Below the pieces are notes generated by a model. The model had not been told where the DNA came from, did not search any database, and saw only the letters and a list, made by a program, of their open reading frames with translations. 58,458 bases of DNA from Planctomycetales bacterium (lineage in GTDB: Bacteria; Planctomycetota; Planctomycetia; Planctomycetales; Planctomycetaceae). Numbering within the stretch: position 1 is the first letter of the stretch; every line of letters begins with the position of its first letter. The stretch is taken from contig JAPLOA010000005.1 in the NCBI GenBank assembly GCA_026400835.1, forward strand, positions 1 through 58,458. The letters are read 5' to 3'. The translations under genes and the position numbers were made by a program. Below, piece after piece: positions 1 through 56,952 of the stretch.

Positions 1-112
1 GTCATTTGTCATTTGTCATTTGTCATTTGTCATTGACCAATGACTCTTCTCCTCTTCGACCACTGACCACTGACGACTGACGACTGACCACTGACCAATG
101 ACCTGCGATTTC
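1..112. repeat. Heptamer array, mirrored (TTTGTCA then TGACCAA)
   Basis: The first 35 bases are tandem GTCATTT units; after a short C/T-rich break the polarity switches to CCACTGA, CGACTGA and CCAATGA units, which are the reverse complement type. The array ends a few bases before the first gene. The switch means the two halves can pair as an imperfect hairpin. The 7-bp period is seen directly. Confidence 0.9.
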
Positions 113-296
113 CCCCATGCTCCCCACTGACACATCCAGTCCGGAATATATTGCCGCCAGAAATGCGGCCATGTCTCGGGTGGACCTCAGCGCACTGGAC
201 GCGGGCGATCCGACCAGACCGTGTGGCCATGAGTACGGCCTTCGTGTGAGCACTCGACTGACAACCGACTATCGCACCACATGGAGGCCTCAGTCC

Positions 297-887
297 ATGG
301 ATGTTAAACCTGCGGAAGTGATGAGTTGTCTTCGAGACGCCGGCGTCGAGAACTGGTGTCTGATGGGGCTGCACGGTTATGTGGGATATCTGCCCATGCC
401 ACGAGCGACCCAGGATGTTGACGTCATGGTCCCGCACAATCAAAAACGAAAAGCCGTGAAGGCTATCAGCGAGCGATGGCCGGAGTTGACCAAAGAAGAG
501 TTTGAGCCGGTCGTCAGGTTTTATGATCCCGCCGAGGTCGATCTGAACGGCAATAGAATACCAGTTATTGATCTAATGCTCCCGTGGGGCAAATTTCAGG
601 AGACGATTCTTAAGGAACATGTCCTGACAGACAAGAAAACGGGAAGCAGATATCCGACTGCTGAAGCGGCTATCGTCGCAAAGTATGCGGCGTTGATCTC
701 GCCGGCGCGAAAGTTTGACAAGAAGCAGCAGGATGCGACAGACTTGGGGCGCCTCATTTGCTCAGTCCACCCCAACTTCAATGTCTTGAAGATTCAATCT
801 CTCGCGGGTCAGGTCTGGGAAGGCGGATCGGAAGAAGTTCTCCGCTTCATCGACTGTGCCCTCAACGAAAAGCCGTTTCCCGTCTGA
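297..887 (+). CDS. Nucleotidyltransferase-fold protein
   Basis: A 196-residue protein if started at the ATG at 297. Early in the protein is a segment with LMGLHGYVGYL followed by RATQDVDVMV, which has the layout of the minimal nucleotidyltransferase fold (glycine-rich strand and helix, then R-x-T-x-D-V-D with the metal-binding aspartates). This fold is found in MNT/AbiEii-like and DUF6036-like proteins; the substrate is unknown. The frame stays open upstream to an ATG at 117, right beside the heptamer array, but those 60 residues resemble nothing I know and both reverse frames are also open there, so I prefer 297. It stands alone between two repeat arrays and has no visible HEPN or AbiEi partner. 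A second, only distantly similar nucleotidyltransferase lies at 1522. Confidence 0.6.
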   Translation: MDVKPAEVMSCLRDAGVENWCLMGLHGYVGYLPMPRATQDVDVMVPHNQKRKAVKAISERWPELTKEEFEPVVRFYDPAEVDLNGNRIPVIDLMLPWGKFQETILKEHVLTDKKTGSRYPTAEAAIVAKYAALISPARKFDKKQQDATDLGRLICSVHPNFNVLKIQSLAGQVWEGGSEEVLRFIDCALNEKPFPV

Positions 888-892
888 GTCAG

Positions 893-1014
893 CAGTTTTT
901 TAGTCCTTGGTCCTTGGTTACTAAGCACTAAGCACTAAGCACTAAGCACCAAGCACCAAGCACCTGCGATTCAACTAAGCACCCTGCTTTTTCAACCAAG
1001 CACCAAGCACGTCA
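893..1014. repeat. Heptamer array, AAGCACT/AAGCACC type
   Basis: It starts with CCTTGGT units and changes to AAGCACT and AAGCACC units with 7-bp spacing, interrupted by CTGCGATTCAAC-like pieces. The word family differs from the TTTGTCA arrays but the period and the mirrored layout (CCTTGGT first, ACCAAGC last) are the same. It separates the nucleotidyltransferase gene from the four-helix-bundle gene. Confidence 0.8.
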
Positions 1015-1019
1015 ATTTC

Positions 1020-1388
1020 ATGAAGATTGAGCGATTCGAGGATATCGAAAGCTGGAAATTGGCGAGAGAGTTAACGCGTCTGGTTTATTCGGCCACGAAG
1101 CAGCCTGATTTCAGCAAAGACTTCGGACTGAAGGATCAGATTCAACGAGCAGCAGGCTCAGCGATGCACAACATTGCCGAAGGGTTTGATGGCGGCAGTG
1201 ACGCAGAGTTTATTAGGTTCCTGCGCTACGCTCAGCGTTCCTGCACAGAAGTCAAGAGTCAGCTCTATGCAGCCCTTGATCAGGACTACATATTTGACGA
1301 ACAGTTCCAACTCATCTACGAACAAGCAACACAAACCCACCGAAAAATCGGCGGCTTCATCCGCTATCTCGCTTCGCGAAGTCCTTAG
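1020..1388 (+). CDS. Four-helix-bundle protein (S23/IVP family)
   Basis: A 122-residue helical protein. The start FEDIESWKLAREL and the central QIQRAAGSAMHNIAEGF are diagnostic of the family first known from 23S rRNA intervening sequences (TIGR02436/PF05635), usually 115 to 130 residues. Members form pentameric four-helix bundles, and the Avd accessory protein of diversity-generating retroelements has the same fold; the role of stand-alone copies is unknown. No rRNA or reverse transcriptase is nearby. The last residues S-P and the TAG stop are written by the GTCCTTA units of the following array. Repeat arrays flank it on both sides, as they do the second family member at 44893. Confidence 0.85.
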   Translation: MKIERFEDIESWKLARELTRLVYSATKQPDFSKDFGLKDQIQRAAGSAMHNIAEGFDGGSDAEFIRFLRYAQRSCTEVKSQLYAALDQDYIFDEQFQLIYEQATQTHRKIGGFIRYLASRSP

Positions 1389-1518
1389 TCCTTAGTCACC
1401 TGCGATCCAACCAAGCACCAAGCACCTGCGTTTCTGACTACGCACCTGCTTCTTCCACCAAGCACTTGCGATTCAACCAAGCACCAGGCACCGGTGTTTT
1501 GACCAGGCACCTGCGATT
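1380..1518. repeat. Heptamer array, CCAAGCA type
   Basis: GTCCTTA units containing the stop codon of the upstream gene are followed by CCAAGCACCAAGCACC blocks alternating with CTGCGATTCAAC-like segments. It ends in CCTGCGATTCCC just before the GTG of the next gene; almost the same word, CCTGCGATTTCCCCC, precedes position 117, so the two nucleotidyltransferase loci share a boundary sequence. Confidence 0.8.
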
Positions 1519-1521
1519 CCC

Positions 1522-2133
1522 GTGGCCTCAACTTCTGATGACCCCGTTTTTCATCTCACTGGTGCCGCATTGTGGCAACGGATGGACCGCGCCGTGGAAA
1601 AAATCCAGCAGCGACTCGAAAGAACGGTCGCGGCGCTCAGCGCCGCAAACATTCCGTACGCGATCATTGGCGGCAATGCTGTTCGAGCCTGGGTGGCTCA
1701 GGTTGACGAAGCAGCCGTACGCACAACCCGTGATGTCGACATTTTAGTGCGGCGAGTAGATTTTGAACGAGTGCAGGAGGTCATGACCACTGCTGGATTC
1801 ACTTACCGGCATGTCAGAGGCATTGATATGTTCCTGGATGGCCCTGATGCAAAAGCTCGTGATGCGGTGCATATTTGCTTCGCCGCCGAAAAAGTTCACC
1901 CCGACAATTTTACGCCCGCACCGGACGTCACCGAAACCGTGCAAATCCAATCGCACAATACCTTGACCCTGGAAGCCCTGGTGCGCATGAAGCTCAACGC
2001 ATTTTGCGACAAAGATCGGATGCACCTGCGGGACATGTTGGATGTCGAGTTGATTGACGACGAATGGCCAAAGCGATTTCCGGCCCCGCTGTCCGAGCGA
2101 CTACAACAACTCATCGATAACCCCGATGGATGA
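1522..2133 (+). CDS. Nucleotidyltransferase-like protein
   Basis: A 203-residue protein with a GTG start immediately after the repeat array. Residues about 38 to 75 contain IPYAIIGGNAVRAW and, later, RTTRDVDILVRR, giving the GG-x-A and D-V-D pattern of a nucleotidyltransferase fold as in AbiEii/DUF6036-type proteins. The remainder is helical with LEALVRMKLNAF and DMLDVELID, matching the C-terminal part of such proteins where a charged helix follows the catalytic domain. Substrate and partner are unknown. It is a single gene, isolated by repeats on both sides, on the same strand as the polysaccharide genes but with no evident link to them. Confidence 0.7.
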   Translation: MASTSDDPVFHLTGAALWQRMDRAVEKIQQRLERTVAALSAANIPYAIIGGNAVRAWVAQVDEAAVRTTRDVDILVRRVDFERVQEVMTTAGFTYRHVRGIDMFLDGPDAKARDAVHICFAAEKVHPDNFTPAPDVTETVQIQSHNTLTLEALVRMKLNAFCDKDRMHLRDMLDVELIDDEWPKRFPAPLSERLQQLIDNPDG

Positions 2134-2139
2134 GAAGAA

Positions 2140-3743: not shown

Positions 3744-4659
3744 CTTGCAGAAAATTAAACAACGGTTTATTCAGGGACTTGGTAATTGGCAGTGGCGGAG
3801 AAAGCATGCAGCCAATGAACGTGAGGCCAACAAAAAGGAAGCATGGTGGAATGAGAAATTCGGCAGCGATGCAACCAAGATCTTCAATCTGGGTAGAAAA
3901 ATAAAATTGAAATTATACGCGGATTCAGTGCTTTGTAGGGTAATCGATACAAAACCTTTCGAACTCACAGAGCTGCGATTTATCGAAGCTTATTTAAGCC
4001 GCGGAGATATCTTCATTGATGTTGGAGCGAATATTGGCTTGTTCACTCTGCTTGCCGCCGAAATCGTTAAAGGCGCGGGGCAAGTTCACTGTTTTGAACC
4101 CTCTTCACGAACGTTTTCCCGTTTGACCGAGAATATCAGCCGCAACGGATTCAACAATGTTCACACCAATCAGTGTGCGTTATCAAATGAGGCTGGTGAA
4201 CTTCAACTCTACGTGTCAACCGATGGGCATGATGCCTGGAATTCACTCGCTGGTCAGTTAGCAGGGAATGAAGGGCGTACCGAAGTTGTTTCCGTGACCA
4301 CTATTGACGCATATTGTCAACGCCGAAAACTCACACCCACGATCATGAAAATTGACGTCGAAGGCTGGGAGAAGAACGTCATTCTTGGCGGGCGTGAAGT
4401 ATTTGGGCCAACGAACGCTCCTGATCTTCTGGTCGAATTCACCGAGGCTAATTGTATTGCAGCCGGAACTTCGGGTAAGGATTTGTTCAACACGATTGCA
4501 CAGCAAGGATATTCGCTTTTTCATCTGGGAGAAGACTTCAAGCTATCCACGGCCACAGCTGACGATGACTTTGGTTATAAAAATCTTCTAGCGACCAAAG
4601 ATTTGCGTCGCGTGCAGCAAAAACTCGCTGATAGCAATTTGGTGCCAGGAACGCGTTGA
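3736..4659 (+). CDS. FkbM-family methyltransferase
   Basis: A 307-residue S-adenosylmethionine-dependent methyltransferase, probably acting on a sugar hydroxyl. Motif I is FIDVGANIGLF at 93-103, the acidic residue after strand 2 lies in CFEPS at 109-113, and the family hallmark KIDVEGWE is at 195-202. I chose the ATG at 3736 because it overlaps the ABC gene end by 8 bp and gives a normal N-terminus; an upstream in-frame start at 3694 would lie deep inside wzt. About 90 residues precede the domain, more than in the two other FkbM proteins here. It is probably translationally coupled to the exporter ATPase. Confidence 0.85.
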   Translation: MSNLQKIKQRFIQGLGNWQWRRKHAANEREANKKEAWWNEKFGSDATKIFNLGRKIKLKLYADSVLCRVIDTKPFELTELRFIEAYLSRGDIFIDVGANIGLFTLLAAEIVKGAGQVHCFEPSSRTFSRLTENISRNGFNNVHTNQCALSNEAGELQLYVSTDGHDAWNSLAGQLAGNEGRTEVVSVTTIDAYCQRRKLTPTIMKIDVEGWEKNVILGGREVFGPTNAPDLLVEFTEANCIAAGTSGKDLFNTIAQQGYSLFHLGEDFKLSTATADDDFGYKNLLATKDLRRVQQKLADSNLVPGTR

Positions 4660-4662
4660 GTC

Positions 4663-5397
4663 ATGATAAAATCGCTCTTACGAAGACTCCGTAGTCGACA
4701 GTCGTCGAATACAGTTTCAAACTCCCATGTAGACACGCCCATTTTGAAGGCCCTGTTTGATTTATACGGAGTCGATTTCGTCATCGACGTCGGCGCCAAC
4801 AAAGGTCAATCTGGACTGGAGTACAGACAGTTTGGCTTCGAGGGACCCATACTATCACTTGAGCCGATCGGATACCTGTTTAAAGAATTGCAGTCAAACG
4901 CGGGCGGTGATCCCAAATGGAAGACAAGACAAGTTGCAGCTGGTAGCAAGCGAGGCTCTGCAACGATCAATGTGTCCGGCGGACATGCAGGAGCAAGTTC
5001 ACTAAGGACCATGACAGATAACGTGTTGCGAAACGCTCCCGACCAGGCAGTTGTGAGGCAGGAAGAAATTCAGGTGGATACCCTGCACAATATTCTGTCC
5101 GATGTCTACCCAAACGGCAGTCGAGCGTTCGCAAAGGTGGATGTGCAGGGGTTTGAGAACGAAGTACTCAACGGTCTCGCGGGGTCAGAACAGAAACTTG
5201 CTGGTATTCAAATCGAAGGATCTCTGATTTCGAATTATGACGGCGAGACATTACTCATCGAGATGATACCGCGAATTTATGCGATGGGATTTGCGCTGGT
5301 TAAGATCGAAGAAGCGTGGGGTAATCCGAAGACACGCGAAATCTATCAGCTAAATGCGGTGTTCTTTCGAACTGATAGACTGCAGCAACACTCTTAA
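4663..5397 (+). CDS. FkbM-family methyltransferase
   Basis: A 244-residue methyltransferase. IDVGANKGQ at 41-49 is the SAM-binding motif and KVDVQGFE at 158-165 the FkbM hallmark, with Q replacing the usual E. It starts 3 bp after the preceding FkbM gene, so the two are surely cotranscribed. It resembles the protein at 12591 (both share DVGAN, GDP-x-W, TIN-V and EEIQV blocks) more than its neighbour at 3736, so these two form a subfamily. Likely role is O-methylation of a sugar in the cluster's glycan; the acceptor is unknown. Confidence 0.85.
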   Translation: MIKSLLRRLRSRQSSNTVSNSHVDTPILKALFDLYGVDFVIDVGANKGQSGLEYRQFGFEGPILSLEPIGYLFKELQSNAGGDPKWKTRQVAAGSKRGSATINVSGGHAGASSLRTMTDNVLRNAPDQAVVRQEEIQVDTLHNILSDVYPNGSRAFAKVDVQGFENEVLNGLAGSEQKLAGIQIEGSLISNYDGETLLIEMIPRIYAMGFALVKIEEAWGNPKTREIYQLNAVFFRTDRLQQHS

Positions 5398-17651: not shown

Positions 17652-18538
17652 TGATTGGTCGGCTGATCCTGAAATTCCGCCAGAAGTTTCAACACGGACT
17701 TCGCACGGCATGGTTTCGAGATGTCTTACGACCTCGAATTCTGAAAACCGATCCGATTGAGGCTGACGACCGATCCGTTTGCGAAATCCATGTGATGACC
17801 TCAGACTCAGACTGGCTCAACCTGATCTGGACACTCAAATCCTTCTACCAAGGTTCAGGTCGTCGCTACGCGCTCTGCCTTCATGACGACGGCACGCTTT
17901 CCGCAACGGCCAGAGAGACGCTGCAATCGCATTTTCCGATGGCTCGGATCGTTAGTCGCAGTCAGGCAGATGCTGAAGTTCTGCCAACGCTGATTAGTTT
18001 TCCAAAATGCGGCGAGTTTCGACGGTCCAATCTGCTGGCACCGAAAGTGTTTGACTTTCGCCACTACCTGAAAGCAGATCGCATGCTGCTGCTCGATAGC
18101 GATGTGCTATTCTTCACAGAACCCTTGGAGCTGCTACGGCGTCTTGAAACGCCCGAGTATCGTCTTAACTGCGTGAACGGGGATATCAAGTCAGCCTACA
18201 CTGTGACTCCAGAGTTAGCTCGGCAACATTGTGATGTCCGTTTGATAGAACGATTCAATTCTGGCCTGGGCGTGATTCATCGGGAGTCTCTGAATCTGGA
18301 CTGGATCGAAGAGTTCCTCGCCATCCCGGGGATCATCGGGAACTTTTGGCTGATCGAACAGACGCTCTATGCATTGTGCAGCAGCCGCTTTGGTGTGGAA
18401 CTCCTGCCGGCGGAATACGATGTGTTTCTAAAGGGCGAGGCTGATGATCGACCGTCTCGACATTACGTCGGGGCGATTCGACATTTGATGTACAAAGAGG
18501 GGATGCGGAAGTTGGTTGTGGATATGCGGGGGTGGTGA
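17651..18538 (+). CDS. Putative GT-A glycosyltransferase
   Basis: A 295-residue protein with a nucleotide-diphospho-sugar transferase look: EIHVMTSDSDWLNLIWTLKSF near the start, YALCLHDDGTL, and MLLLDSDVLFF at 145-155 with a D-S-D metal site as in GT8-like enzymes. FNSGLGVIHRESL and a final HYVGAIRHLMYKEGM, where the histidine could complete the metal site, also fit. I cannot assign a named family. It is coupled to the acyltransferase by TGATG and its end runs into a heptamer array. Confidence 0.65.
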   Translation: MIGRLILKFRQKFQHGLRTAWFRDVLRPRILKTDPIEADDRSVCEIHVMTSDSDWLNLIWTLKSFYQGSGRRYALCLHDDGTLSATARETLQSHFPMARIVSRSQADAEVLPTLISFPKCGEFRRSNLLAPKVFDFRHYLKADRMLLLDSDVLFFTEPLELLRRLETPEYRLNCVNGDIKSAYTVTPELARQHCDVRLIERFNSGLGVIHRESLNLDWIEEFLAIPGIIGNFWLIEQTLYALCSSRFGVELLPAEYDVFLKGEADDRPSRHYVGAIRHLMYKEGMRKLVVDMRGW

Positions 18539-18540
18539 GT

Positions 18541-18632
18541 TTGGTCATTTGTCATTTGTCATTTGTCATTTGTCAGTTGTCATTGGTCATTTGTCAGAGG
18601 GTAGAGGGTAGAGGGCAGAGGGCAGGAAGAAG
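18541..18632. repeat. Heptamer array (TTTGTCA then AGAGGGC)
   Basis: GTCATTT units continue with GTCAGTT and then change to AGAGGGT/AGAGGGC units, also of 7 bp. The TTTGTCA half follows the upstream gene end; the half nearest the next gene is here AGAGGGC rather than TGACCAA, so it is an exception to the mirrored layout. A similar composite array is at 19726. Confidence 0.9.
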
Positions 18633-18634
18633 TC

Positions 18635-19723: not shown

Positions 19724-19725
19724 GG

Positions 19726-19798
19726 TATTTGTCGTTTGTCAGTTGTCATTTGTCATTTGTCATTTGTCATTGGGCAGAGGGCAGAGGGCAGAGGGCAC
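19726..19798. repeat. Heptamer array (TTTGTCA then AGAGGGC)
   Basis: It has the same composite structure as the array at 18541: TTTGTCG/TTTGTCA units directly after a stop codon, then AGAGGGC units. Two arrays with the same order of two word families, around one GT4 gene, suggest that the array was duplicated with the gene or copied between the two boundaries. Confidence 0.9.
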
Positions 19799-19871
19799 GA
19801 TTTGGGGTCAAAGGCTCAGCGATTAACCTGGGTTGGGGCATCGCCCCGGGAAAACTGAAAAATATGACGGG

Positions 19872-35254: not shown

Positions 35255-35322
35255 CCCACTGACTCTCAGCCCTTCGCCCTTCGCCCACTGACCACAGCCC
35301 ACTGACCAATGACCAATGACCA
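35255..35322. repeat. Heptamer array upstream of GT4 gene
   Basis: CGCCCTT units turn into CCCACTGA and CCAATGA units. Only the TGACCAA half is present, pointing at the next gene, and the last CCAATGA unit supplies its ATG at 35316. Confidence 0.85.
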
Positions 35323-36545
35323 CTAGCACCTCAGTCACCGTCTCTCACTCCGGCAAACAACATGCGTATCGGCATGCTCTGTCGCTGCAGCAACTTGGGC
35401 TATTGCGTCGGTTTGTGACAAGTACTTATTACAAGAGGGATCGCTGGCCTGACCAAATTGCACAGTGGTTCCCGCGACTTGATCGAGGATTGCAGAAGCG
35501 GTGGTTGGACGGTGTGGACTCGTCATTGGTCACTCGTCATTTGTCATTGGAGGTGCCGGAACTTTTCTATAGGAATGTGCTGAAGAATCCGCAACGGGCA
35601 GAGCTGGCGATGTTTGAACGAGATGCAGCCTTTGATCGGTGGGTGGCATCTCGTTTTGCGTTTGAAAGCGACATCTTCTGGGGTTTTCAGGGTAGTTGCC
35701 TGGAAAGCCTGAAAGCCGCTCGTTCGGCCGGAAAGATGGCGGTCTGTGAGTTTGCAACCGCTCATGTGACGGCCGCCATTCGTATTCTTTCCGAAGAAGC
35801 CGAGAAGCATCCGGAGTGGGCTGCGACGATTAGCAATCTGCATTTCCCTGACTGGTATCGCGAACGGTTAGAACAGGAGCCACATCAGGCCGACGTCTGT
35901 GTAGCAGCCAGTGGGTTTACTCAACGGTCTCTTGAAGAAGTTGGCATCCCGCCAGAACGCATTCAACTTCTGCCGCTGGCCGCTGATGTCGACCAGTTTC
36001 AGTTTGCCGAACGGCGCACGGATGGTCCATTGAAAGTGTTGTTCGTCGGAGGCATCGGACAGCGGAAGGGAATCAAGTACCTGCTTGAAGCGGTTCAACA
36101 ACTGAATTCCGCCCATGTCGAATTGTCTCTGCTTGGACCAGCCCCCGCGGATGCTCGTCCACTGGAAGCCTACTCGAAATGGTATCGTTATCTGGGGCGT
36201 ACGGATCAGGCGGGAGTTGTGCGGAAGATGCAGCAAGCTGACGTACTGGTGCTGCCGTCTGTCTTTGAAGGATTTGGATTAGTGATTATTGAAGCGATGG
36301 CCACCGGGTTGCCCGTGATCACCAGTACTCACAGCTGTGGCCCGGAAGTGATCCGTGAGGCAGTTGATGGTTTTGTTCTGGCTCCGGATGATGTGACAGG
36401 ACTTGCTCAGAAGATTGCCTGGTGTGCAGAACATAGAACACAACTCACGGAAATGGGCCGTTCAGCACATGAACAGGCGAAGAAATTTTCGTGGGATGCT
36501 CATCGAGAGCGCCTCAAGCAATTGTTAATCGAGATTGCAAGATAG
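35316..36545 (+). CDS. Glycosyltransferase family 4 protein
   Basis: A 409-residue GT-B enzyme. VTVSHSGKQHAYRHALSLQQ begins the acceptor domain, PLKVLFVGGIGQRKGIKYLL opens the donor domain and VLPSVFEGFGLVIIEAMATG is the nucleotide-sugar site with the E-x7-E pair. The ATG and the following two codons lie in the last heptamer units of the upstream array. Residues 68-79 (DSSLVTRHLSLE) are encoded by heptamers of the opposite polarity inserted in the coding sequence at 35517-35552. The stop TAG is the start of the next array. The enzyme otherwise looks complete. Confidence 0.85.
   Translation: MTTSTSVTVSHSGKQHAYRHALSLQQLGLLRRFVTSTYYKRDRWPDQIAQWFPRLDRGLQKRWLDGVDSSLVTRHLSLEVPELFYRNVLKNPQRAELAMFERDAAFDRWVASRFAFESDIFWGFQGSCLESLKAARSAGKMAVCEFATAHVTAAIRILSEEAEKHPEWAATISNLHFPDWYRERLEQEPHQADVCVAASGFTQRSLEEVGIPPERIQLLPLAADVDQFQFAERRTDGPLKVLFVGGIGQRKGIKYLLEAVQQLNSAHVELSLLGPAPADARPLEAYSKWYRYLGRTDQAGVVRKMQQADVLVLPSVFEGFGLVIIEAMATGLPVITSTHSCGPEVIREAVDGFVLAPDDVTGLAQKIAWCAEHRTQLTEMGRSAHEQAKKFSWDAHRERLKQLLIEIAR
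35517..35552. repeat. Heptamers inside a GT4 coding sequence
   Basis: CGTCATTGGTCACTCGTCAT followed by TTGTCATTGG has the GTCATTT polarity, complementary to the array that contains this gene's start codon 200 bp upstream. It is in frame and encodes a variable-loop segment. Confidence 0.85.
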
Positions 36546-36598
36546 TCATTTGTCATTTGACGACTGACCAATGACGACTGACCAATGACGACTGACCA
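36543..36598. repeat. Mirrored heptamer array between two GT4 genes
   Basis: TAG-TCATTTGTCATTTG, beginning with the stop codon of the upstream gene, switches to ACGACTGACCAATGACGACTG. The ATG at 36585 of the next gene lies in the last CCAATGA unit. This 56-bp spacer is the shortest complete example of the mirrored layout. Confidence 0.9.
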
Positions 36599-37733
36599 AC
36601 TAAAAATCACCTTCCTCACCGTGATGCCTTCGCCGTACGTGCAGGATCTGTTTGCTGCGATGTCGGCTGATGCCCGGATCGATTTGACGGTTTGGTATCT
36701 GGAACAAGTGGCGCCGGATACGTACTGGGGTGAGCAGGCGATGCCGGGGTATGCACGCGTCCTGCCGGGCCGCTGGTATGGTTTCTCTGGGGCTCGTGTG
36801 CATTGGAATCCGGGAATAAGAAAACTCATTGAGAATAGCGAAGCCGACCTATTTGTCATTGTCGGCTATATAGGGCTTACTAACCAGGTCGCGATGCGGA
36901 CATTGAATCGACTGGGCCGGAAGTGGGTGTTCTGGGGTGAAGTGCCGGGCCTGCATCAGCGTGGGTGGCTTGGATCCCGGATTCGCCGCTTGCTGCAGAA
37001 GCCACTTTTGAAGGCTGTCGGGATTGCGGCTGTGGGTTCTCGCGCCATGACTGCCTATCAGGCTTTGATTCAAGCCGGTAATCCACGTTGTGTTTTTCGC
37101 AACATTCCCTATCACTGTCGATTGGATGAATTTGAAGCACAGGCAGCGGAGCAGGGGAGTAGGCGGGCGGAGGGGAGCGAGTGCGAAGGCGGGTTGCGTT
37201 TTTTGTATTGTGGGCAGTTGATTGAACGGAAGGGCGTGGATCTGTTGTGCCGTGCGTTTTGTCGCCTTGTGGCGTCGGGGGCTCATGCCACCTTAACGCT
37301 GGCTGGAGAAGGACCATTGAAGGGGCAATTGGAACAAAGCCTCACAGACGAATGTCGGACTCGAGTGCATTTCATCGGGTTCCAGCGAGTCGAAGCATTG
37401 CCCGCGATCTTTGGACAGGCCGATTGTTTTGTCCTGCCGTCGCGACACGATGGCTGGGGAGTTGTCATCAATCAGGCCGTGGCCGCTGGACTTGCCATTG
37501 TTGTTACTGATACGGTTGGTGCCAGTCACGATCTGGTAGAGAATGGAGTTAACGGCATAGTGATAGCTTCGGAATCAGAGGATGCGATTCTGGCCGCTCT
37601 TCAAGTTCTGATGAACTCACCGGAAAAAATTCGACGGATGGCGACTCGATCGTCTGAAATTTCAGAGAGGATTTCAGCGAAGAGATCCATTGACGACTGG
37701 TGTGATCTTTTCTCCGAAGTGACAGTGCGGTGA
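36585..37733 (+). CDS. Glycosyltransferase family 4 protein
   Basis: A 382-residue GT-B enzyme. ITFLTVMPSPYVQDLFAAM opens the fold; GLRFLYCGQLIERKGVDLL starts the donor domain; FVLPSRHDGWGVVINQAVAA is the donor site with DGWG in place of EGFG. The first five codons (MTTDQ) are repeat-derived. Residues about 188-199, before the donor domain, form a G/R/E-rich low-complexity stretch encoded by purine-rich DNA (near 37145-37195) that looks inserted. It is followed by 225 bp without a gene. Confidence 0.85.
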   Translation: MTTDQLKITFLTVMPSPYVQDLFAAMSADARIDLTVWYLEQVAPDTYWGEQAMPGYARVLPGRWYGFSGARVHWNPGIRKLIENSEADLFVIVGYIGLTNQVAMRTLNRLGRKWVFWGEVPGLHQRGWLGSRIRRLLQKPLLKAVGIAAVGSRAMTAYQALIQAGNPRCVFRNIPYHCRLDEFEAQAAEQGSRRAEGSECEGGLRFLYCGQLIERKGVDLLCRAFCRLVASGAHATLTLAGEGPLKGQLEQSLTDECRTRVHFIGFQRVEALPAIFGQADCFVLPSRHDGWGVVINQAVAAGLAIVVTDTVGASHDLVENGVNGIVIASESEDAILAALQVLMNSPEKIRRMATRSSEISERISAKRSIDDWCDLFSEVTVR

Positions 37734-42176: not shown

Positions 42177-42312
42177 TCATGCGATTTGGTCAATCCCGGC
42201 TGGCATAATCACTCATGCCCTCTTCACTCCCGTCGGCGTCTCTAGTGTTGTGCATAATTCGGCGTCAATTGCAGCACAAGTATCCCGCCGAAAAAGAGGT
42301 GCGTGGAGTCTA

Positions 42313-43518
42313 ATGAAGATTTTACTTGTATCGTCATCTTCAGGATCTCATGGGGGTGGGGAGTATTATCTGCTGGAGCTTGCGACATCGCTGCAGGCGC
42401 TGGGACACGAGGTCGTCACATGGGTCTCTCTTCATTCGCAAATGGAGCCTTTGGTTCAGTTGTTTCTGCAACGTGGATTGACTGTGCATCGGTTTGGATA
42501 CACAAATACTTATCATCGACGACTGCGATCTCTGGGGGCCATCGGCGACTGGTCGCTGCAGCAGGAGCTGGCCGGGCAATTCCGTCAGTCCTCAGCCGAC
42601 ATCATTCACATCAACCAACAGTGCGTCGAAGATGGCCTTGATCTCGTTAAGGCTGTCGCCCTGTGTAACTGCCCTGCCTTGTCGACAATTCACGTAACAA
42701 GATCAGCCACATCGCTTGGAGCAAAACTTGCGTGGCTCAGAGACATGGTCTCCAAAAACACCTTGCGCAAAACTCGCCTTCCTTTGGTCGGAATTTCAAA
42801 AACATCGGCGTGTGATCTGACCGAATTTGTGAACGGAAATCGTGAACTTCAGGATGTGTCTGCACCAGCGACGACTGCGCTAAGGGCAAGATATTGTCCA
42901 GTGTATGCGGTGGCAAATGGTGTGAGTGTGCCGGCGGGGGCAGATCGTCACGATCTAAGATCGTCAGTTGGGGTAGGTCCGTCCGATGTGGTGCTTGGCG
43001 TAGTGGCAAGAATTGAACATCAGAAAAATCCACTGTTTCTCTGCCAGGTCTTGAGCGCCCTGCCGAGTTTCGTCCATTGCATTTGGGTAGGAGATGGACG
43101 ACTCAGGTCTGAATTGCAGCATGAGATTACGCGACGGGAGCTTTCAGGGCGATTTCACCTTACCGGGTGGCAGGATCAAGCGGCTGGCTGGATGTCTGCA
43201 TTCGATATGTTTACCCTCGGCTCTCTTTATGAAGGTCTGCCGCTAGCACTACTTGAAGCTATGGCGTCTGGTTTGGCGTGCGTGGCTTCTAATGTTGATG
43301 GAATGCAGGACGTGATTGAGCATGGGGTAAATGGCTTTCTTTGTTCAGTCAACGACGTTGATTCCTGGGTAAAAGTTCTTATGCCTCTGATCGAGTCTCC
43401 TGCAACTCGCTCTCAAATCGGTGCAGCGGCCCGAAGACGTTACGAAGCAGAATTCAGTATCGAAGCGATGGCAAAACGCACGATTGCTGTTTATGAGGAT
43501 GTGATCAGGCGGGGTTAG
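42313..43518 (+). CDS. Glycosyltransferase family 4 protein
   Basis: A 401-residue GT-B enzyme. MKILLVSSSSGSHGGGEYYL is a classical N-terminus with the glycine loop, IIHINQQCVEDGLDL follows, VVLGVVARIEHQKNPLFL opens the donor domain, and FTLGSLYEGLPLALLEAMA is the donor site with the E-x7-E pair. The ATG at 42313 is chosen for this N-terminus; the frame is open to 42250 without similarity. The TAG stop is the first base triplet of a heptamer array. Confidence 0.9.
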   Translation: MKILLVSSSSGSHGGGEYYLLELATSLQALGHEVVTWVSLHSQMEPLVQLFLQRGLTVHRFGYTNTYHRRLRSLGAIGDWSLQQELAGQFRQSSADIIHINQQCVEDGLDLVKAVALCNCPALSTIHVTRSATSLGAKLAWLRDMVSKNTLRKTRLPLVGISKTSACDLTEFVNGNRELQDVSAPATTALRARYCPVYAVANGVSVPAGADRHDLRSSVGVGPSDVVLGVVARIEHQKNPLFLCQVLSALPSFVHCIWVGDGRLRSELQHEITRRELSGRFHLTGWQDQAAGWMSAFDMFTLGSLYEGLPLALLEAMASGLACVASNVDGMQDVIEHGVNGFLCSVNDVDSWVKVLMPLIESPATRSQIGAAARRRYEAEFSIEAMAKRTIAVYEDVIRRG

Positions 43519-43618
43519 TCATTTGGCATTTGGCATTTGTCATTTGTCATTTGTCATTTGTCATTTGTCATTTGTCATTTGCCCACTGCCCACTGCCCAC
43601 TGCCCAATGACCAATGAC
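43516..43618. repeat. Mirrored heptamer array between two GT4 genes
   Basis: It begins with the stop codon TAG, continues with TCATTTG units (about nine), then CCCACTG units (four) and ends in CCAATGACCAATGACC, whose last ATG at 43614 starts the next gene. This is the clearest full-length example of the polarity switch. Confidence 0.95.
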
Positions 43619-44786
43619 CAAAGTTCTGCACCTCATCCCTTACATGCATCCTTCTGCTGGTGGTCCACCGGTGGTTGTGGATCAGTGGTGCGCGGAGCTG
43701 CGGCGGCGAGGTGTTGAGGCAGAGGTTCTGACGACGGATGCTTATGCGTCGGCTGATGATGACGCATGGCAGGCGGAGTATGCCGCCCGGTATCCGCTGA
43801 CGGTGGTGAAATGCGTCGGGCCTCGTGGCTTTGGGTATTCGACTCAGCTTCGGTCCGTGCTTGCAGACCGGGTGAAGCACGTTGATCTGGTCCATGTGCA
43901 TAACGTTTGGGGTTATGCGAACCGACTGGCCGCGAGCCTTTGCCCGAAATGTGATGTTCCGTTTGTTGTCAGCACGCATGGCATGCTGGATCCGCATTCG
44001 ATGGGACGTAAGGCGTGGAAGAAACGGCTCTACGGTCGCTTGTTCGAATTTCCCGCGTTGCGACAAGCATCAGGGTTGATCTTCACCCATGCGGAAGAAG
44101 AGCGACTGGCTCGCGAAACTTGTGGTACGTTGCCAATGGGTTACGTGGTACCGCTCGGCACGAGCGACCCACCCGCTGAATCGCGATCCGAGTTGGCTTC
44201 GCAGTTCCTCCGTCAGTTTCATGCAACGGCCCGCGGACCACGCGTTGTGTTCTTAAGCCGGCTGCATGAGAAGAAGGGGCTCGATCTGTTACTGCCGGCA
44301 TTTCAACGCGTGCTGCAGAAACACTCGTCCAGTCAGCTGGTGCTCGTCGGGCCGGGAGAAAAAGACTACGTTCAGGAGTTGCGGTCCCGAGCGAACTCGC
44401 TCGGCATATCGGAGCAGACGCATTTCATCGGCTCGCTGCATGGCGAACAGAAGTGGGCCGCTCTGGCTGCTGCGGATGTGTATGTTTTGCCGTCCTATCA
44501 GGAGAATTTTGCCATTGCCCTCGTCGAAGCGCTGCGAGTGGGCACACCGGTGGTTTGCAGTCAGCGAGTCAACATCTGGTCGGATCTCGCGAATGCTGGT
44601 GCGGCGACGGTTTGTAAATTGACTGTGGAAAGTGTGGCGGAATCCATCCTTCGGTTGTTAGATGATCGAAGTGGAGCGGAGGAGCAGGGCGGCAGGGGGG
44701 CGGCGTTCGCGGCGGAAAACTATACGTGGGTGAAGAGTGTGGAGAGGTTGGCTGATGTTTACAAGAGAGTTGTCAGTGGTCATTAG
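43614..44786 (+). CDS. Glycosyltransferase family 4 protein
   Basis: A 390-residue GT-B enzyme. HLIPYMHPSAGGPPVVVDQW starts the acceptor domain, LVHVHNVWGYANRLAASL and VVSTHGMLDPHSM are typical of this WbuB/PelF-like branch, RVVFLSRLHEKKGLDLLLPA opens the donor domain, and VLPSYQENFAIALVEALRVG is the donor site. Both the ATG (M-T) and the last residues S-G-H with the TAG stop are written by heptamers, so the gene is embedded in arrays at both ends. A G-rich low-complexity stretch (AEEQGGRGAAF) lies near the C-terminus. Confidence 0.9.
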   Translation: MTKVLHLIPYMHPSAGGPPVVVDQWCAELRRRGVEAEVLTTDAYASADDDAWQAEYAARYPLTVVKCVGPRGFGYSTQLRSVLADRVKHVDLVHVHNVWGYANRLAASLCPKCDVPFVVSTHGMLDPHSMGRKAWKKRLYGRLFEFPALRQASGLIFTHAEEERLARETCGTLPMGYVVPLGTSDPPAESRSELASQFLRQFHATARGPRVVFLSRLHEKKGLDLLLPAFQRVLQKHSSSQLVLVGPGEKDYVQELRSRANSLGISEQTHFIGSLHGEQKWAALAAADVYVLPSYQENFAIALVEALRVGTPVVCSQRVNIWSDLANAGAATVCKLTVESVAESILRLLDDRSGAEEQGGRGAAFAAENYTWVKSVERLADVYKRVVSGH

Positions 44787-44885
44787 TCATTAGTCATTTG
44801 TCATTTGTCAGTGGTCATTTGTCAGTAGTCATTTGTCAGTAGTAATTGGGCAGTGGTCATTTGTCAGTAGTCATTGGGCAGGGAG
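44771..44885. repeat. Heptamer array, TTTGTCA polarity only
   Basis: It starts within the last codons of the GT4 gene (GTCAGTGGTCATTAGTC) and alternates GTCATTT, GTCAGTA and GTCAGTG units. There is no TGACCAA half before the following four-helix-bundle gene, one of the exceptions to the mirrored layout. Confidence 0.9.
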
Positions 44886-44892
44886 GCGGGGT

Positions 44893-45282
44893 GTGGGGAA
44901 GAAGACGAGGGGGTTTGAGGATTTGCGTGTGTACCAGTTGGCGGAAGAAATTGGTGACGCCATTTGGGAAATCGTATTGGGCTGGGGGCAATTGGCGAAG
45001 GATACGGTCGGCAAGCAAGTTATTCGGTCAGCTGACAGTATTGGGGCCAATATTGCCGAGGGGGCTGGACGCGGTTCGTATCAGGACAATCGCAGGTTTG
45101 TAAGGATTGCCCGAGGTTCGCTGCTTGAAACACGACACTGGCTACGGCGAGCCCATCGCCGTAGTTTACTCAGTCCTGAACAAACCACCGCACTCAAGCG
45201 ACTCATCGACGAACTCTCGCCAAAACTCAACGCCTACCTCAACTCCATCGGCCCCACCGAAACCCCCGACGGTGACCACTGA
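44893..45282 (+). CDS. Four-helix-bundle protein (S23/IVP family)
   Basis: A 129-residue member of TIGR02436/PF05635: FEDLRVYQLAEEI at the start and QVIRSADSIGANIAEGAGR in the middle. The GTG at 44893 is chosen because earlier in-frame codons, back to a TTG at 44833, are heptamer repeats. The end reads P-D-G-D-H-stop, with the TGA inside CCACTGACGACTG of the next array. It is quite diverged from the copy at 1020, so they are not recent duplicates, yet both lie between heptamer arrays. The role is unknown; there is no rRNA or reverse transcriptase nearby. Confidence 0.85.
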   Translation: MGKKTRGFEDLRVYQLAEEIGDAIWEIVLGWGQLAKDTVGKQVIRSADSIGANIAEGAGRGSYQDNRRFVRIARGSLLETRHWLRRAHRRSLLSPEQTTALKRLIDELSPKLNAYLNSIGPTETPDGDH

Positions 45283-45449
45283 CGACTGACAACTGACCAA
45301 TGACAACTGACAACCCCCGTAATTTAGCCGCCTACGACAACTCCATCGGCCCCACCGAAACGCCCGACGGTGACCACTCACACCTGACACCTGACCAATG
45401 ACACCTGACCAATGACAACTGACCTCCCCCGTAATTTAGCCGCCTACGA
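45240..45449. repeat. Tandem duplication with captured gene ends (98 + 112 bp)
   Basis: Unit 1 (45240-45337) and unit 2 (45338-45449) each consist of the last codons of the four-helix-bundle gene, a heptamer array and the first codons of the acetyltransferase gene. The gene-derived parts differ at one base; the arrays have five and seven heptamers, explaining the 14-bp length difference. The junction is CAACTCCA, present in both genes. Unit 1 contains a decoy start at 45300 giving a 33-residue chimeric frame to 45401. Confidence 0.9.
45273..45425. repeat. Heptamer arrays in the duplication, TGAC polarity
   Basis: Two blocks of GACGACT, GACAACT, GACCAAT and GACACCT units, separated by the duplicated gene fragments. 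All point toward the acetyltransferase gene, and its ATG at 45412 is in the last CCAATGA unit. Confidence 0.9.
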
Positions 45450-45909
45450 CAACTCCAGCTTCAACCCTGGCCGAGGAACGATCGTTCGCATCGTTTGGTA
45501 CTTCCTGAGTTTGCTGATCTTTGAAAGTGGTTGGCTTCCGGTGTCTTCGTTGAAGTGTCGGCTGCTACGGATGTTTGGAGCGACGATCGGGCAGGGCGTG
45601 GTGATCAAGCCGCATGTTCGGATCAAGTATCCGTGGAAGTTGGTTGTGGGCGATCATTGCTGGATTGGGCAGGAAGCCTGGATTGACAATCTGGATCAGG
45701 TGACTCTGGAAAGCGATGTGTGTCTGTCACAGGGCGTTTATTTGTGTACGGGCAGTCATGATCATCGATCGCCGACGTTTGAATTGAAGACAGCTCCGAT
45801 TGTCGTGAAGCATGGAGCCTGGATCGCAGCTCGGGCTATTGTCCTTGGTGGTGCGGTTGTTGAATGTGGAGAAGTGGTCGGAGCGGGAGTGGTGAGGAGA
45901 AGGGGGTAG
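45412..45909 (+). CDS. WcaF-like acetyltransferase, C-terminally shortened
   Basis: A 165-residue hexapeptide acyltransferase: [38 protein letters not shown], and hexapeptide turns such as [19 protein letters not shown] and [10 protein letters not shown], then [12 protein letters not shown] with the catalytic-site histidine. This is the WcaF colanic-acid acetyltransferase type. The end, [11 protein letters not shown]-stop, breaks off where relatives continue with VVTKDIP...GNPAKVI, so about 20 residues are replaced by four codons running into a heptamer array. Whether it is still active is unclear. The M-T-T-D start is repeat-encoded. Confidence 0.8.
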
Positions 45910-45999
45910 TCAGTGGTCATTTGTCATTTGTCATTTGTCAGTAGTCATTTGTCAGTTGTCATTTGTCAGTAGTCATTTGTCAGTAGTCATTTGTCAGTA
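45907..45999. repeat. Heptamer array after the acetyltransferase gene
   Basis: It begins in the TAG stop and consists of GTCATTT, GTCAGTA and GTCAGTT units, TTTGTCA polarity only. It abuts the third large palindrome. Confidence 0.9.
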
Positions 46000-46001
46000 G
46001 G

Positions 46002-46093: not shown

Positions 46094-46630
46094 TTGGTGG
46101 CCGAACCTGTAGTACTGACCACTTTGATCGAGGATGAAATTCACGAGGCTCGTCTTGAAGTCATCGATACTCACCAGCACACCGTTGTCACCGTTATCGA
46201 ATTGCTCAGTCCGACGAACAAGATCAGTGCTTCCCGGGGTCGAGCCAGCTACGAACAGAAGCGTCGTGAAGTGATGACGTCTTCCAGTCATTTCGTGGAA
46301 ATCGATCTGCTTCGGGACGGCAACCATTTGCATACACGTGAGCTATTGCCACCCGGCGAATACTTCGTGCATGTCTCCCGAAAAGATCGTCGGCCGAAAG
46401 GTTACGTCTGGCCGATTTTGCTACCACAGCGACTGCCGGTGATTGGAATCCCTCTGAAAGAAGGGGATGGTGACGTGGAATTGGACCTTCAGATGGTTCT
46501 GGCCACTGCATACGATCGAGCTGCGTATGATTTGGAAGTCGACTACCGGTCGGAACCGATCCCTCCATTGAGTCATCCGCATGCAGAATGGGCCAATACT
46601 CTCTTGATCGCCGAGGGATTGCGGAGCTAA
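46094..46630 (+). pseudogene. DUF4058 protein, 5'-truncated
   Basis: 178 codons match the C-terminal two thirds of DUF4058 proteins: HTVVTVIELLSPTNKI, GRASYEQKRREVMTSSSHFV, EIDLLRDG and YLVHVSRKDRRP-like blocks (here YFVHVSRKDRRPKGYVWPI), ending in HAEWANTLLI. Full members are about 250 residues and begin with a conserved MPSPFPGMDPYLE-like stretch, which is missing; the upstream sequence is instead the large palindrome and a heptamer array. A TTG at 46094 could still serve as a start, but the gene is most likely a remnant. The family's function is unknown. Confidence 0.7.
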
Positions 46631-46725: not shown

Positions 46726-46773
46726 ACAACTGACAACTGACCAATGACAACTGACCAATGACCAATGACAATC
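46726..46773. repeat. Heptamer array, TGACCAA polarity
   Basis: ACTGACAACTGACCAATGAC units point toward the PEP-CTERM gene but end about 170 bp before its start, so the array does not supply that start codon. Confidence 0.85.
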
Positions 46774-51859: not shown

Positions 51860-51888
51860 CCTTGCTGTGAAACCCAGTCTGGGTTGCA

Positions 51889-54649: not shown

Positions 54650-54846
54650 TCCTTAAAACGTCGATTCTTTGTTCAGATGAAGAGCTTCCTGTTGCTCTTT
54701 TGTTCAGTGCTTCTTGATGCCGAAAAAAATTGGGAAAAATGATACTAATAGAACTCCTATTGATTCTCTTTGCTAGCTTAGAGCGTTAACTTGGGGCGAG
54801 TTTACGGGTTGCATTGAATGTGACGCTGTCTTTTGGGGGGGCGATT

Positions 54847-55413
54847 ATGCATAGGTGGGTTTGGCTTGTTGTGATGTTGGTTATTTCTCAGGCGGGTAAG
54901 TCCGACGCCGCAGTCATCGATTTTGATGGTGCCCCTGTGACTACTCCGTTGGTCTATGGTGATTTTACCTTTAGTGCGACGACGCCTGCTTCGGCTGGTA
55001 GGACTCTTGCGGGAAACGTAACAGGGAATAACGGAACGAATGCGTTTGCTTTTTCTGCAGGAAACACCGTTACAGTGACCTACACAGGGCTTGGTACGTT
55101 CACATTAAACAGTTTGGCCTTGGGACGCACGACTTCTTCAGTCTCAGATCCGACATTCACGATTACTGGTTCTGGTCCCGGCGTTAACTTTGGACCTTTT
55201 GCTACACTTACTCCAACAGCGTTTGGCGCGACATTCTCTAACATTACGAGCTTGGTGATCGCGGCCACGCAAGAGGCTGCTTTTGATAATTTCGATTACA
55301 CGATAAACGGAGCAGCAGCAGTTCCAGAACCGGCCTCTGCGGCGTTTCTTGGGTTGGGCTCATTGGCGTTGGTTGTTAGACGTCTTCGTCGTCGAAACTC
55401 GGTCGTTGCCTGA
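54847..55413 (+). CDS. PEP-CTERM sorting-domain protein
   Basis: A 188-residue secreted protein: signal peptide (WVWLVVMLVISQAGKSDAA), a short beta-rich domain (VIDFDGAPVTTPLVYGDFTF and later AAFDNFDYTI, the usual last strand) and the sorting signal VPEPASAAFLGLGSLALVV followed by RRLRRR. The ATG at 54847 has seven G six to twelve bases upstream, a strong ribosome-binding site; an in-frame TTG at 54814 would precede it. A perfect terminator follows. Confidence 0.9.
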   Translation: MHRWVWLVVMLVISQAGKSDAAVIDFDGAPVTTPLVYGDFTFSATTPASAGRTLAGNVTGNNGTNAFAFSAGNTVTVTYTGLGTFTLNSLALGRTTSSVSDPTFTITGSGPGVNFGPFATLTPTAFGATFSNITSLVIAATQEAAFDNFDYTINGAAAVPEPASAAFLGLGSLALVVRRLRRRNSVVA

Positions 55414-55446
55414 ACTCGTAAACTGGGTCGGGTTAGAATGATCTCC

Positions 55447-55477
55447 AGAGGACTGCTTTTGCAGTCCTCTTTTTTTA
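55447..55477 (+). terminator. Rho-independent terminator
   Basis: AGAGGACTGC-TTTT-GCAGTCCTCT is a perfect 10-bp stem followed by T7. It lies 33 bases after the PEP-CTERM stop. Confidence 0.92.
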
Positions 55478-55618
55478 CGCGCTGAGCGTTTCTTCCAGCT
55501 CAATTCACGGGGACGTGTGGTTGGCTTATTTGGCTGGTCGCGGCCAAAGCGCGTAACGCACAATCCGCTGTGATTTGGCCCCTACCCAACATCCTCGACA
55601 TTTGCGACAAGGTCGAGT

Positions 55619-55694
55619 GGACCACGAAGTACACGAATAGTCGAAGTGCTTCAGCGTGAGTTCGATGTGATTCTTTCGTGGCTTTCGTGGTTTC
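55619..55694. repeat. Mirrored CCACGAA/TTCGTGG repeats
   Basis: GGACCACGAAGTACACGAAT on the left and ATTCTTTCGTGGCTTTCGTG on the right are reverse complements with a few mismatches, separated by about 30 bases. A third repeat family with the mirrored layout. Confidence 0.75.
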
Positions 55695-55960
55695 AAAAAG
55701 ACACTGGCCCAACTTCCCCTGGGCAATTCTCAAAGTAGCCGTCTCGCTCCGTCGAGACGAGTCCTTGCAGACAGCCCATCGCTGAAGAAACTCCGAGCCA
55801 TTCCCGTTGATAGCCTGCGTTGACGCCGCGGTGAAACGCATCGATCTTCCCCGGAGTCCGAAAACTGCGGTGCCTCGTTGCTATACCGGGTCGTGCAAAC
55901 GATTTTGCGTAGAGCCGCACAATTTGCCTTGAATGGCAGCACAAAAAAACTTGTGGAATG

Positions 55961-56073
55961 CCGGCGAGCGGTATAGCGTCAGCTATCCGTGTCTCTGCGA
56001 TTTCTCGCGATGGTCAAGTTATAGAAAACAGATGGGGACTGACACGGAGGGCTGACGCCCAACCGCTCGCCGG
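55961..56073. repeat. Palindromic repeat (CCGGCGAGCGG...CCGCTCGCCGG)
   Basis: CCGGCGAGCGGTATAGCGTC and its complement ending CAACCGCTCGCCGG, extended inward by TCCGTGTC/GACACGGA, pair over about 30 bases around a 48-base loop. Confidence 0.75.
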
Positions 56074-56228
56074 TTCAGCTAATCAGGGGTGGCGTTCATC
56101 CATGTTTTTGAACGTAGCAACACATTGCTTTCGCCGTTTCACGGCTTAATGTTCATTTTCAAACGTCTTCCCCAGGCTAAAGCCTGGGGCTACCTGCTGC
56201 CGCCTCTCCGAGGCAAAATCAGAGCGAA

Positions 56229-56311
56229 GGCTCAGAAAAGGGGTCGGGAACCAATAGCCAAATGGCCCGCAGGGTGCTGCGCACTATTGGTTCCTGACCC
56301 CTTTTCTGAGC
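56229..56311. repeat. Large palindrome copy 5 of 5
   Basis: GGCTCAGAAAAGGGGTCGGG plus AACCAATAG on the left, one base different from copy 1, and a perfect right arm. Its centre is identical to copy 1 as far as I can align it by eye. It lies 30 bp from the stop of the NusG-like gene. Confidence 0.95.
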
Positions 56312-56341
56312 ACCATTCCTTGTTCGATGATTGACAGAGCC

Positions 56342-56896
56342 CTACAGCAACTCCACGTCAGCTTCATCCACCAGCACAGAAGCACCTTGCTGCATGAAGT
56401 TGACGATGACGGTCAGGCGATGCTGCGAGTGGACTTTGGAGATGGTGCCACGTAGTCCAGCCATGGCCCCTGTCTTCACGATGGCCGCACGCCCCAGCAG
56501 CGGCTTCGGCTCGGGCTGAACATCGTTGCCTTTCTCCAGCACAAGACGGATGCGTTTCAGGTCTTCAAGCAACTGCTCAGACTCTGTCACTGGCAGACAG
56601 CGGGATATACATCCGGTTGAGACGGCATTGTGTCGAGCGATCTCGTCACCACGCATGAAGACATAGCCAGTAAACAGTGGCATGTAGCTGGTGCGAATTC
56701 TTCCTTGCGGCGATCGTTTTCTTTGCTGCACCATGGGGCCGTAATGGGCAATCTCCAATGGTCGGAGTTTTCGCATAAACTCCTTCTCATGGCGTGCCAA
56801 CGTGTACATGGCAAACCACGATTCATCGATCCCCGCTGCTGGATCATCCAGCAGGGTTTCAGGGAACATATCGGGTTCTTTGGCAAGGATGGGCAT
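56342..56896 (-). CDS. NusG/RfaH-family transcription antiterminator
   Basis: A 184-residue protein. WFAMYTLARHEKEFMRKL at 27-44 starts the NGN domain, which binds RNA polymerase; YMPLFTGYVFMRGD is a typical NGN strand pair; GRAAIVKTGAMAGLRGTISK near 135-154 is the KOW motif. Specialised NusG paralogues (RfaH, LoaP, UpxY) help polymerase read through long operons such as polysaccharide loci, and this one lies beside such a cluster. It is on the - strand and upstream, in its own direction, stands a heptamer array of TGACAAC polarity, as for the + strand genes. Its targets are inferred only. Confidence 0.85.
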   Translation of the reverse strand: MPILAKEPDMFPETLLDDPAAGIDESWFAMYTLARHEKEFMRKLRPLEIAHYGPMVQQRKRSPQGRIRTSYMPLFTGYVFMRGDEIARHNAVSTGCISRCLPVTESEQLLEDLKRIRLVLEKGNDVQPEPKPLLGRAAIVKTGAMAGLRGTISKVHSQHRLTVIVNFMQQGASVLVDEADVELL

Positions 56897-56901
56897 TTTT
56901 T

Positions 56902-56952
56902 AGTGGCTAGTTGTCAGTTGTCAGTTGTCAGGTGTCAGGTGTCAGGTGTCAG
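56902..56952. repeat. Heptamer array upstream of the NusG-like gene
   Basis: AGTTGTC and AGGTGTC units on the + strand; on the - strand they read TGACACC and TGACAAC toward the gene start. The polarity rule therefore holds for a gene on the other strand. The array ends about 6 bp before the ATG. Confidence 0.9.

Follow-up and report, generated by a model that had tools for sequence, protein, structure and literature searches.

The 58,458-nucleotide stretch analysed here (hereafter the window) is the entire contig JAPLOA010000005.1, or C23, of a Planctomycetales bacterium whose genome (assembly GCA_026400835.1) comprises 7.58 Mb in 112 contigs. Its gene junctions carry arrays of degenerate 7-bp units, which are most likely the arms of small hairpin elements, many of them gene-less, that resemble the intervening sequences (IVS) of 23S rRNA and are of the type that encloses a gene of the S23p/IVP family (Pfam accession: PF05635). 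Pfam matches among 20 scanned window proteins, to DUF1501, DUF1559/SBP_bac_10, exosortase, PEP-CTERM and several glycosyltransferases, appear planctomycetal in character and point to an exopolysaccharide cluster.

Arrays named in an initial annotation of this DNA were recovered by both Tandem Repeats Finder and a separate scan. Period scanning identified 17 period-7 regions in the window and, at the other periods from 4 to 15, none except at the multiple 14; 20 shuffles gave no period-7 region, and 168 kb of unselected stretches from the same genome, from which locus L017 (239 bp) was excluded, gave one. An array is present at 11 of the 50 predicted gene junctions. The main unit is TGACNAN with its reverse complement, accompanied by AGAGGGC, ACTAAGC, CAGGCAC and TTCGCCC, and a strict form of the pattern (TGACNAH three times, then TGAC) has 59 overlapping matches in the genome, 42 in this 58 kb contig and the remainder in two others. 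As contigs start inside TGACAAA arrays (window 1-34; contig C84 of the same genome, 3-76), such arrays interrupt the assembly, and counts for the genome are probably underestimates. The arrays and the genes associated with them are as follows, with strand given for genes only.

1-109, mirrored spacer at the contig start: GTCATTT arm 1-35, TGACNAN arm 64-105; pairing z -7.3 against base shuffles
903-1010, spacer of other units: short TTGGTCC piece, then ACTAAGC/CCAAGCA array 915-967
1020-1388, + strand, S23p/IVP gene 1 (PF05635): Pfam E 1e-30; flank scores inverted 27, direct 75
2139-2415, long mirrored spacer: TTCGTCA/TTGGTCC side, CAGGCAC, TTCGCCC and CCAATGA side; pairing z -8.3
18535-18633, one-sided spacer: GTCATTT then AGAGGGC/T, spanning stop 18538 to start 18635
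19724-19802, one-sided spacer: GTCATTT then AGAGGGC, starting at stop 19723
35268-35331, half array: TTCGCCC/TGACCAA, before the gene at 35316
36543-36599, mirrored spacer: 2 GTCATTT units and 6 TGACGAC/TGACCAA units; weak pairing, z -3.1
43511-43627, mirrored spacer, stop 43518 to start 43614: GTCATTT arm, TGCCCAC/TGACCAA arm; weak pairing, z -2.2 and z -1.6
44764-44876, left (GTCA) arm of the second S23p element, starting at the stop of the upstream glycosyltransferase gene
44893-45282, + strand, S23p/IVP gene 2 (PF05635): Pfam E 8e-28 on 44833-45279; flank scores inverted 52, direct 12; RNA fold z -4.0
45270-45426, right (TGAC) arm of the second S23p element, including a 98-bp tandem duplication that repeats the S23p gene end
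45901-46000, left (GTCA) arm, upstream of the DUF4058 fragment and starting at the stop codon of gene 45412-45909; pairing with 46726-46772 at z -9.4
46097-46630, + strand, DUF4058 gene fragment: profile positions 88-253 of 254; inverted flank score 58
46726-46772, right (TGAC) arm after the DUF4058 fragment, preceding the PEP-CTERM gene
56899-56958, half array: GTTGTCA/GTGTCAG on the + strand, before the - strand NusG-like gene 56342-56896

One S23p-type element is present in the window, at about 44764-45315, where the S23p/IVP gene 44893-45282 lies between GTCA units (at 44764-44876) and TGAC units (from 45270 onwards). The array at 44771, initially regarded as lacking a second half, and that at 45270 are thus the two sides of one gene. 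Downstream, the supposed half arrays at 45907 and 46726 do exist and are in fact two sides of a single DUF4058 fragment, a gene that lacks its N-terminal third and has GTCA units on its left (45901-46000) and TGAC units on its right (46726-46772). The tandem duplication in the right arm of the S23p element (45231-45409) copies the 3' end of the gene together with part of that arm.

A polarity tied to gene direction, with GTCA units after stop codons and TGAC units before start codons, had been proposed for these arrays and taken as undescribed. The window contains 18 TGAC or GTCA runs of at least three units, one of which lies inside a gene; scored by the nearest gene edge, 13 of the other 17 follow the proposed polarity and four (1-32, 44856, 45273 and 46731) depart from it, three of these bracketing the S23p/IVP gene 44893-45282 or the DUF4058 fragment and the fourth lying at the contig edge. 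With contig C84 included, 15 of 20 runs fit (two-sided p 0.04), although the counts are not independent. Where opposite arms are neighbours in the window, GTCA precedes TGAC four times and the reverse order occurs once, with the arms 201 bp apart. Because the order of GTCA left and TGAC right is identical for co-directional, convergent and divergent genes, the dependence on gene direction reduces to the left/right order of an inverted-repeat spacer in any gene orientation: the spacers form inverted repeats with a single handedness. Gene-less mirrored spacers have the same units in the same order as the arms of the second S23p element. Two AGAGGGC arrays cited as exceptions, at 18541 and 19726, are present, their G-rich units lying on the same strand side as GTCATTT, so that these spacers are one-sided rather than mirrored. 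Nor is the polarity itself new, since it is already in print for other heptamers (Rehm 2015, PMC4692102; MacGregor 2015, PMC4679880).

Related genomes do not share a single polarity. Among stretches fetched around strict pattern matches, the runs fitting the rule number 12/15 in G018, 12/18 in G010 (20 contigs among the first matches listed), 14/28 in G083 and 5/45 in G049 (contig C180 not included), the last being opposite in 40 of 45 (TGAC at 3' gene ends in 23/25, GTCA at 5' ends in 17/20). The TGAC arm comes first in 13 of 15 pairs in G083 and in all 17 pairs in G049, which shows that at least one other kind of heptamer hairpin exists. A signal of gene direction is rejected on the left/right order together with the opposite polarity in G049, and terminators are rejected as well, as 9 of the 28 counted G083 runs stand in divergent spacers, where a terminator would have no obvious use. 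The complete G083 chromosome (L060-L076) has many tight TGACGAA hairpins with the TGAC arm first and a short loop, in all gene contexts, and an S23p gene of the same genome (L316) has TGACGAA arms in the order opposite to its other hairpins. G049 (L100-L128) has TGACAAA ... TTTGTCA spacers with bodies of ∼45-170 bp that often start with AATTGG and end with CCAA.

Inverted flanks, defined by a score of at least 27, are a recurrent property of S23p genes across bacteria. The loci compared are the best 80 of at least 561 confirmed in a scan of GTDB species genomes and, by their record titles, come from Chloroflexota, Planctomycetota, Bacteroidota, Proteobacteria, Acidobacteriota, cyanobacteria, Clostridia and others; a planctomycete set consists of the 30 best loci from 29 genomes of the same family and the window's own genome. 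Exclusion of short flanks reduced the samples from 80 to 79 S23p loci, from 30 to 26 planctomycete-family S23p loci, from 30 to 26 PIN genes and from 30 to 25 DUF4058 loci. Inverted flanks were found at 58 of 79 S23p loci, against 1 of 285 pseudo-windows of the same loci and none of 26 PIN genes, and at 17 of 26 planctomycete-family S23p loci; further S23p loci of relatives gave 11 of 16, sixteen of 20 having been scored (of the other four, one duplicated a locus of the earlier set and three fell below the family cut-off). Under a looser length limit, 57 of 80 loci were inverted and 10 of 80 direct above the 99th percentile of cross-locus pairs. For comparison, 2 of 89 unselected genes of the window's genome, drawn from 7 stretches, have inverted flanks. 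DUF4058 loci pass at 2 of 25, these being the window's own and one borderline case, and DUF4058 as a general cargo is therefore rejected.

The flanks are also heptameric. Period-7 arrays lie within 300 bp of the gene at 41 of 80 S23p loci, on both sides at 20, compared with 19 of 274 control windows, while periods 5, 6 and 8-12 reach at most 3 S23p loci per side; in the planctomycete set an array within 250 bp is present at 14 of 26 full-flank loci and at none of 26 PIN genes (Fisher p 1e-5). Left arms start between -7 and +16 bp of an open reading frame (ORF) end at 24 of 27 loci, against 38 of 540 random positions, and the S23p gene is co-directional with both neighbours at 54 of 71 loci, the neighbours being uncurated longest ORFs. 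Base skew differs between the sides, with G exceeding C in 24 of 28 left arms and C exceeding G in 26 of 34 right arms. The unit varies by locus (for example GGGGCGA, GAGAGTT, AGTGGGT, GGTGGAC or GGGAACA), the two arms of one locus matching each other, so what S23p loci have in common is architecture rather than sequence; TGACNAN arms of the window type enclose S23p also in G018 (L323) and G083 (L316).

At four plasmid junctions in Nostocales, one plasmid has S23p together with arms whereas a relative has neither, and three of the four empty sites measure 3 bp. In plasmids of Nostoc C052 and CCNP1411 (L288, L289), S23p flanked by GGGAACA/TGTTCCC arms separates a TraM-recognition gene from the gene that follows, and the right arms of the two plasmids differ by one 7-bp unit. 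Of 28 other plasmids that have this junction, eight were retrieved and seven of these, L298 being set aside, were examined: L292, L293, L296 and L304 (matched-part identity 96, 95, 79 and 74%) have a plain spacer of ∼50 bp without arms, L294 shares the left junction and has related arms but no trace of S23p, an arms-only form, and L295 and L297 have a different insert of AATTCAA type. In Calothrix NIES-22 plasmids 1 and 2 (L286, L287), S23p flanked by GGGTGTA arms lies between an integrase gene and the ATG that follows it; this query matched 41 records, 2 of which cover it whole, and five other junctions of the type were compared, with a 3-bp gap in L299-L301. In the Nostoc plasmids L302 and L303, the integrase junction that holds S23p in Calothrix houses other small genes without heptamer arms. 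Homologous operons on Nostoc ATCC 53789 plasmids (L327, L328) carry S23p elements at different junctions with reciprocal 3-bp gaps, and a possible 5-bp duplication including part of the stop codon is seen at one of the four sites (L328). Since the empty junctions lack both, arms and gene come and go together. The association of S23p with heptamer-armed, insertable hairpins at gene junctions is strong.

The heptamer blocks of the window are accordingly best read, with a modest balance of probability in favour, as the paired arms of small inverted-repeat elements that occupy stop-to-start gaps and are IVS-like at the RNA level, the G/T-rich arm lying on the left and the A/C-rich arm on the right of the gap. 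The gene-less mirrored spacers would be gene-less members of the same class, on account of their shared units, order and placement and of the arms-only locus L294. RNA folding of three examples gave a long stem formed by the arms with the gene in the loop, at z -4.0 (second S23p element of the window), -6.4 (L288) and -4.9 (L263). By analogy with the 23S rRNA IVS, the element may behave as RNA in the same way, with a stem that RNase III could cut out of the transcript, and such excision would make insertion between genes tolerable. Arm copy number presumably changes by 7-bp slippage. The usual position of the G-rich arm on the left might be explained by a ribosome-binding site ahead of the gene together with stop codons at the gene end.

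A wider reading, for which the chances appear somewhat short of even, is that S23p hairpins are mobile mRNA intervening sequences of many phyla, which would enter operons in the sense direction at stop/start junctions, be excised and seed many heptamer arrays, those resembling STRR (short tandemly repeated repetitive sequences), TAACTGA and GGGNATC repeats supposedly among them, the rRNA IVS being the special case located in 23S rRNA.

Several observations weigh against the IVS-like reading of the arrays. Neither array nor inverted flanks are present at 15 of 79 S23p loci, and the number of TGACNAN arrays does not track the number of S23p genes, with 393 pattern matches and no S23p in G010 and 8 S23p matches and no pattern match in G001, which implies that gene-less arrays can increase in number where no S23p is resident. 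The prevailing order of TGAC then GTCA in G049 and G083 means that some TGACNAN hairpins belong to a type other than that of S23p. RNA duplex energy fails to separate S23p (13 of 80 past the cut) from PIN genes (6 of 26), a failure put down to differences in G+C. Three of the four insertion sites show no target-site duplication, and the elements have no known mobility gene. Within the window, the gene-less spacers 43511-43627 and 36543-36599 pair weakly, and the S23p gene 1020-1388 is not a typical armed copy, its inverted score of 27 equalling the threshold and its direct score of 75 being higher. In the window's own genome, only two of the seven S23p loci are clearly inverted (44893-45282, score 52; L144, score 37), and L140, L142, L145 and L146 fail the inverted-flank test.

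The seven PF05635 matches of this genome have heptamer arrays, by eye, on both sides at four loci and on one side at one more, and by the automatic scan on both sides at two and on one side at two. S23p gene 1020-1388 lies in a spacer region of ACTAAGC and CCAAGCA heptamers with the arm order reversed relative to the norm. Contig C84 (L078) carries at 4278-5025 a 79-83% identical copy of window 102-1366, in which the start of the first window gene (102-499) is fused directly to this S23p gene, the remainder of the first gene and the spacer being missing.

Among alternatives, the most substantial, though itself unlikely, is that the hairpins stand alone and grow by polymerase slippage or template switching at junctions, S23p preferring or sharing such sites. 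The abundance of arrays in G010 without S23p and the existence of gene-less hairpins of both orders agree with it, as does the report that many genomes have heptamers as their commonest class of long repeats (Mrazek 2007, cited in PMC4679880). It fits poorly with the empty forms at the four plasmid junctions, which are without the arms as well as the gene, and with the PIN genes and DUF4058 loci, which, save for the window's own and the one borderline DUF4058 locus, are without such arms.

An improbable explanation invokes one-direction regulatory signals, acting either in translation control, as proposed by MacGregor for TAACTGA, or through quadruplex-type control, as proposed by Rehm for GGGNATC. 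The polarity towards starts and stops, found for 13/17 window runs and in print, would suit such signals, but the rule is one of left/right symmetry with the opposite polarity in G049, the units vary by locus, TGACNAN has no G-tracts, and Rehm et al. found no regulatory role (PMC4692102). That each glycosyltransferase gene is a cassette between terminal inverted repeats, exchanged among polysaccharide clusters, is very improbable: the inverted flanks of genes 43614-44786 (score 37) and 45412-45909 (57) first suggest it, but both genes adjoin S23p or DUF4058 elements that explain the flanks, the former scores higher as a direct repeat (80), and the 5 of 51 window genes that pass include the S23p genes and the DUF4058 fragment.

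The initial annotation was right to suggest a relationship to heptamer repeats of other bacteria, and the S23p-type elements can be set beside several known systems. One is the 23S rRNA IVS, with its S23p gene in the loop of a stem and its presence or absence at a site; in Coxiella burnetii, two to three tandem heptamers stand just before the S23p start and their number varies between strains (PMC4990558). In the window S23p is encoded at 1020-1388 and 44893-45282 and the gene-less spacers are without it, while an ORF in the loop of inverted ends is found at the 58/79 loci and in the three folds, 1020-1388 being borderline. The known IVS occupies helix 45 of 23S rRNA, whereas the window copies lie between protein genes, and an Rfam scan of 40 of the 80 S23p loci returned a group II intron and a pan motif alone, with no rRNA at the gathering score. 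RNase III excision has been demonstrated for the 23S rRNA IVS (PMC4990558) and would extend to operon elements by analogy.

GGGNATC arrays of Xanthomonas and Nostoc are similarly tight to gene ends and obey the same strand rule, the G-rich heptamers lying either on the sense strand no more than 50 bp from the stop or on the antisense strand no more than 50 bp ahead of the start, and two Xanthomonas genomes having 70 and 75 close convergent pairs; the arrays were generally not associated with mobile elements and were explained by quadruplexes (PMC4692102). The 13/17 window runs accord with that strand rule if GTCA is taken as the counterpart strand, but the unit differs, the main one being TGACNAN and AGAGGGC occurring only at 18.6 and 19.8 kb, and the available text of that study mentions no S23p. 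The TAACTGA repeats of Beggiatoaceae, cyanobacteria and Bacteroidetes are likewise intergenic heptamers with a strong start-codon orientation, 147 of 170 sets pointing to the start codon and 24 sampled Microcystis sets having no clear orientation (MacGregor 2015, PMC4679880). They differ in being essentially one-sided sets of one unit, which the window units do not match, and S23p or an intervening sequence does not appear in the available text of the paper (PMC4679880).

Miniature inverted-repeat transposable elements (MITEs) are also small, with inverted ends and presence or absence at a site, but have constant terminal inverted repeats where the heptamer unit here differs per locus, and the present elements show no constant target duplication and no identified parent transposase. 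STRR sequences of heterocystous cyanobacteria are short tandem heptamers between genes. Their units and host are different, and no description of inverted arms or S23p was found for them in the accessible part of the literature. For a putative link to Avd of diversity-generating retroelements, a profile search of S23p against PDB matched 2gsc and 2rld and no chain named Avd up to E 10. Reverse transcriptase (PF00078) has no match in the window's contig and three matches at two places elsewhere in the genome, and the glycosyltransferase 42250-43518 has no relative in viral contigs.

In the accessible text of the literature searched, S23p and heptamers are joined only in PMC4990558, for the Coxiella 23S IVS alone, and not in PMC4853749, PMC5041132 or PMC3542288; a link between S23p, heptamers and hairpins beyond the Coxiella remark was not found there. 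The origin of heptamer arrays, long known from the literature, has not been agreed upon, and the S23p link supplies a candidate source. S23p, for which no function is known (PMC4990558), would gain a natural partner in its own stem, and a curiosity of rRNA would become a widespread operon element, an idea that the filled and empty plasmid junctions make directly testable.

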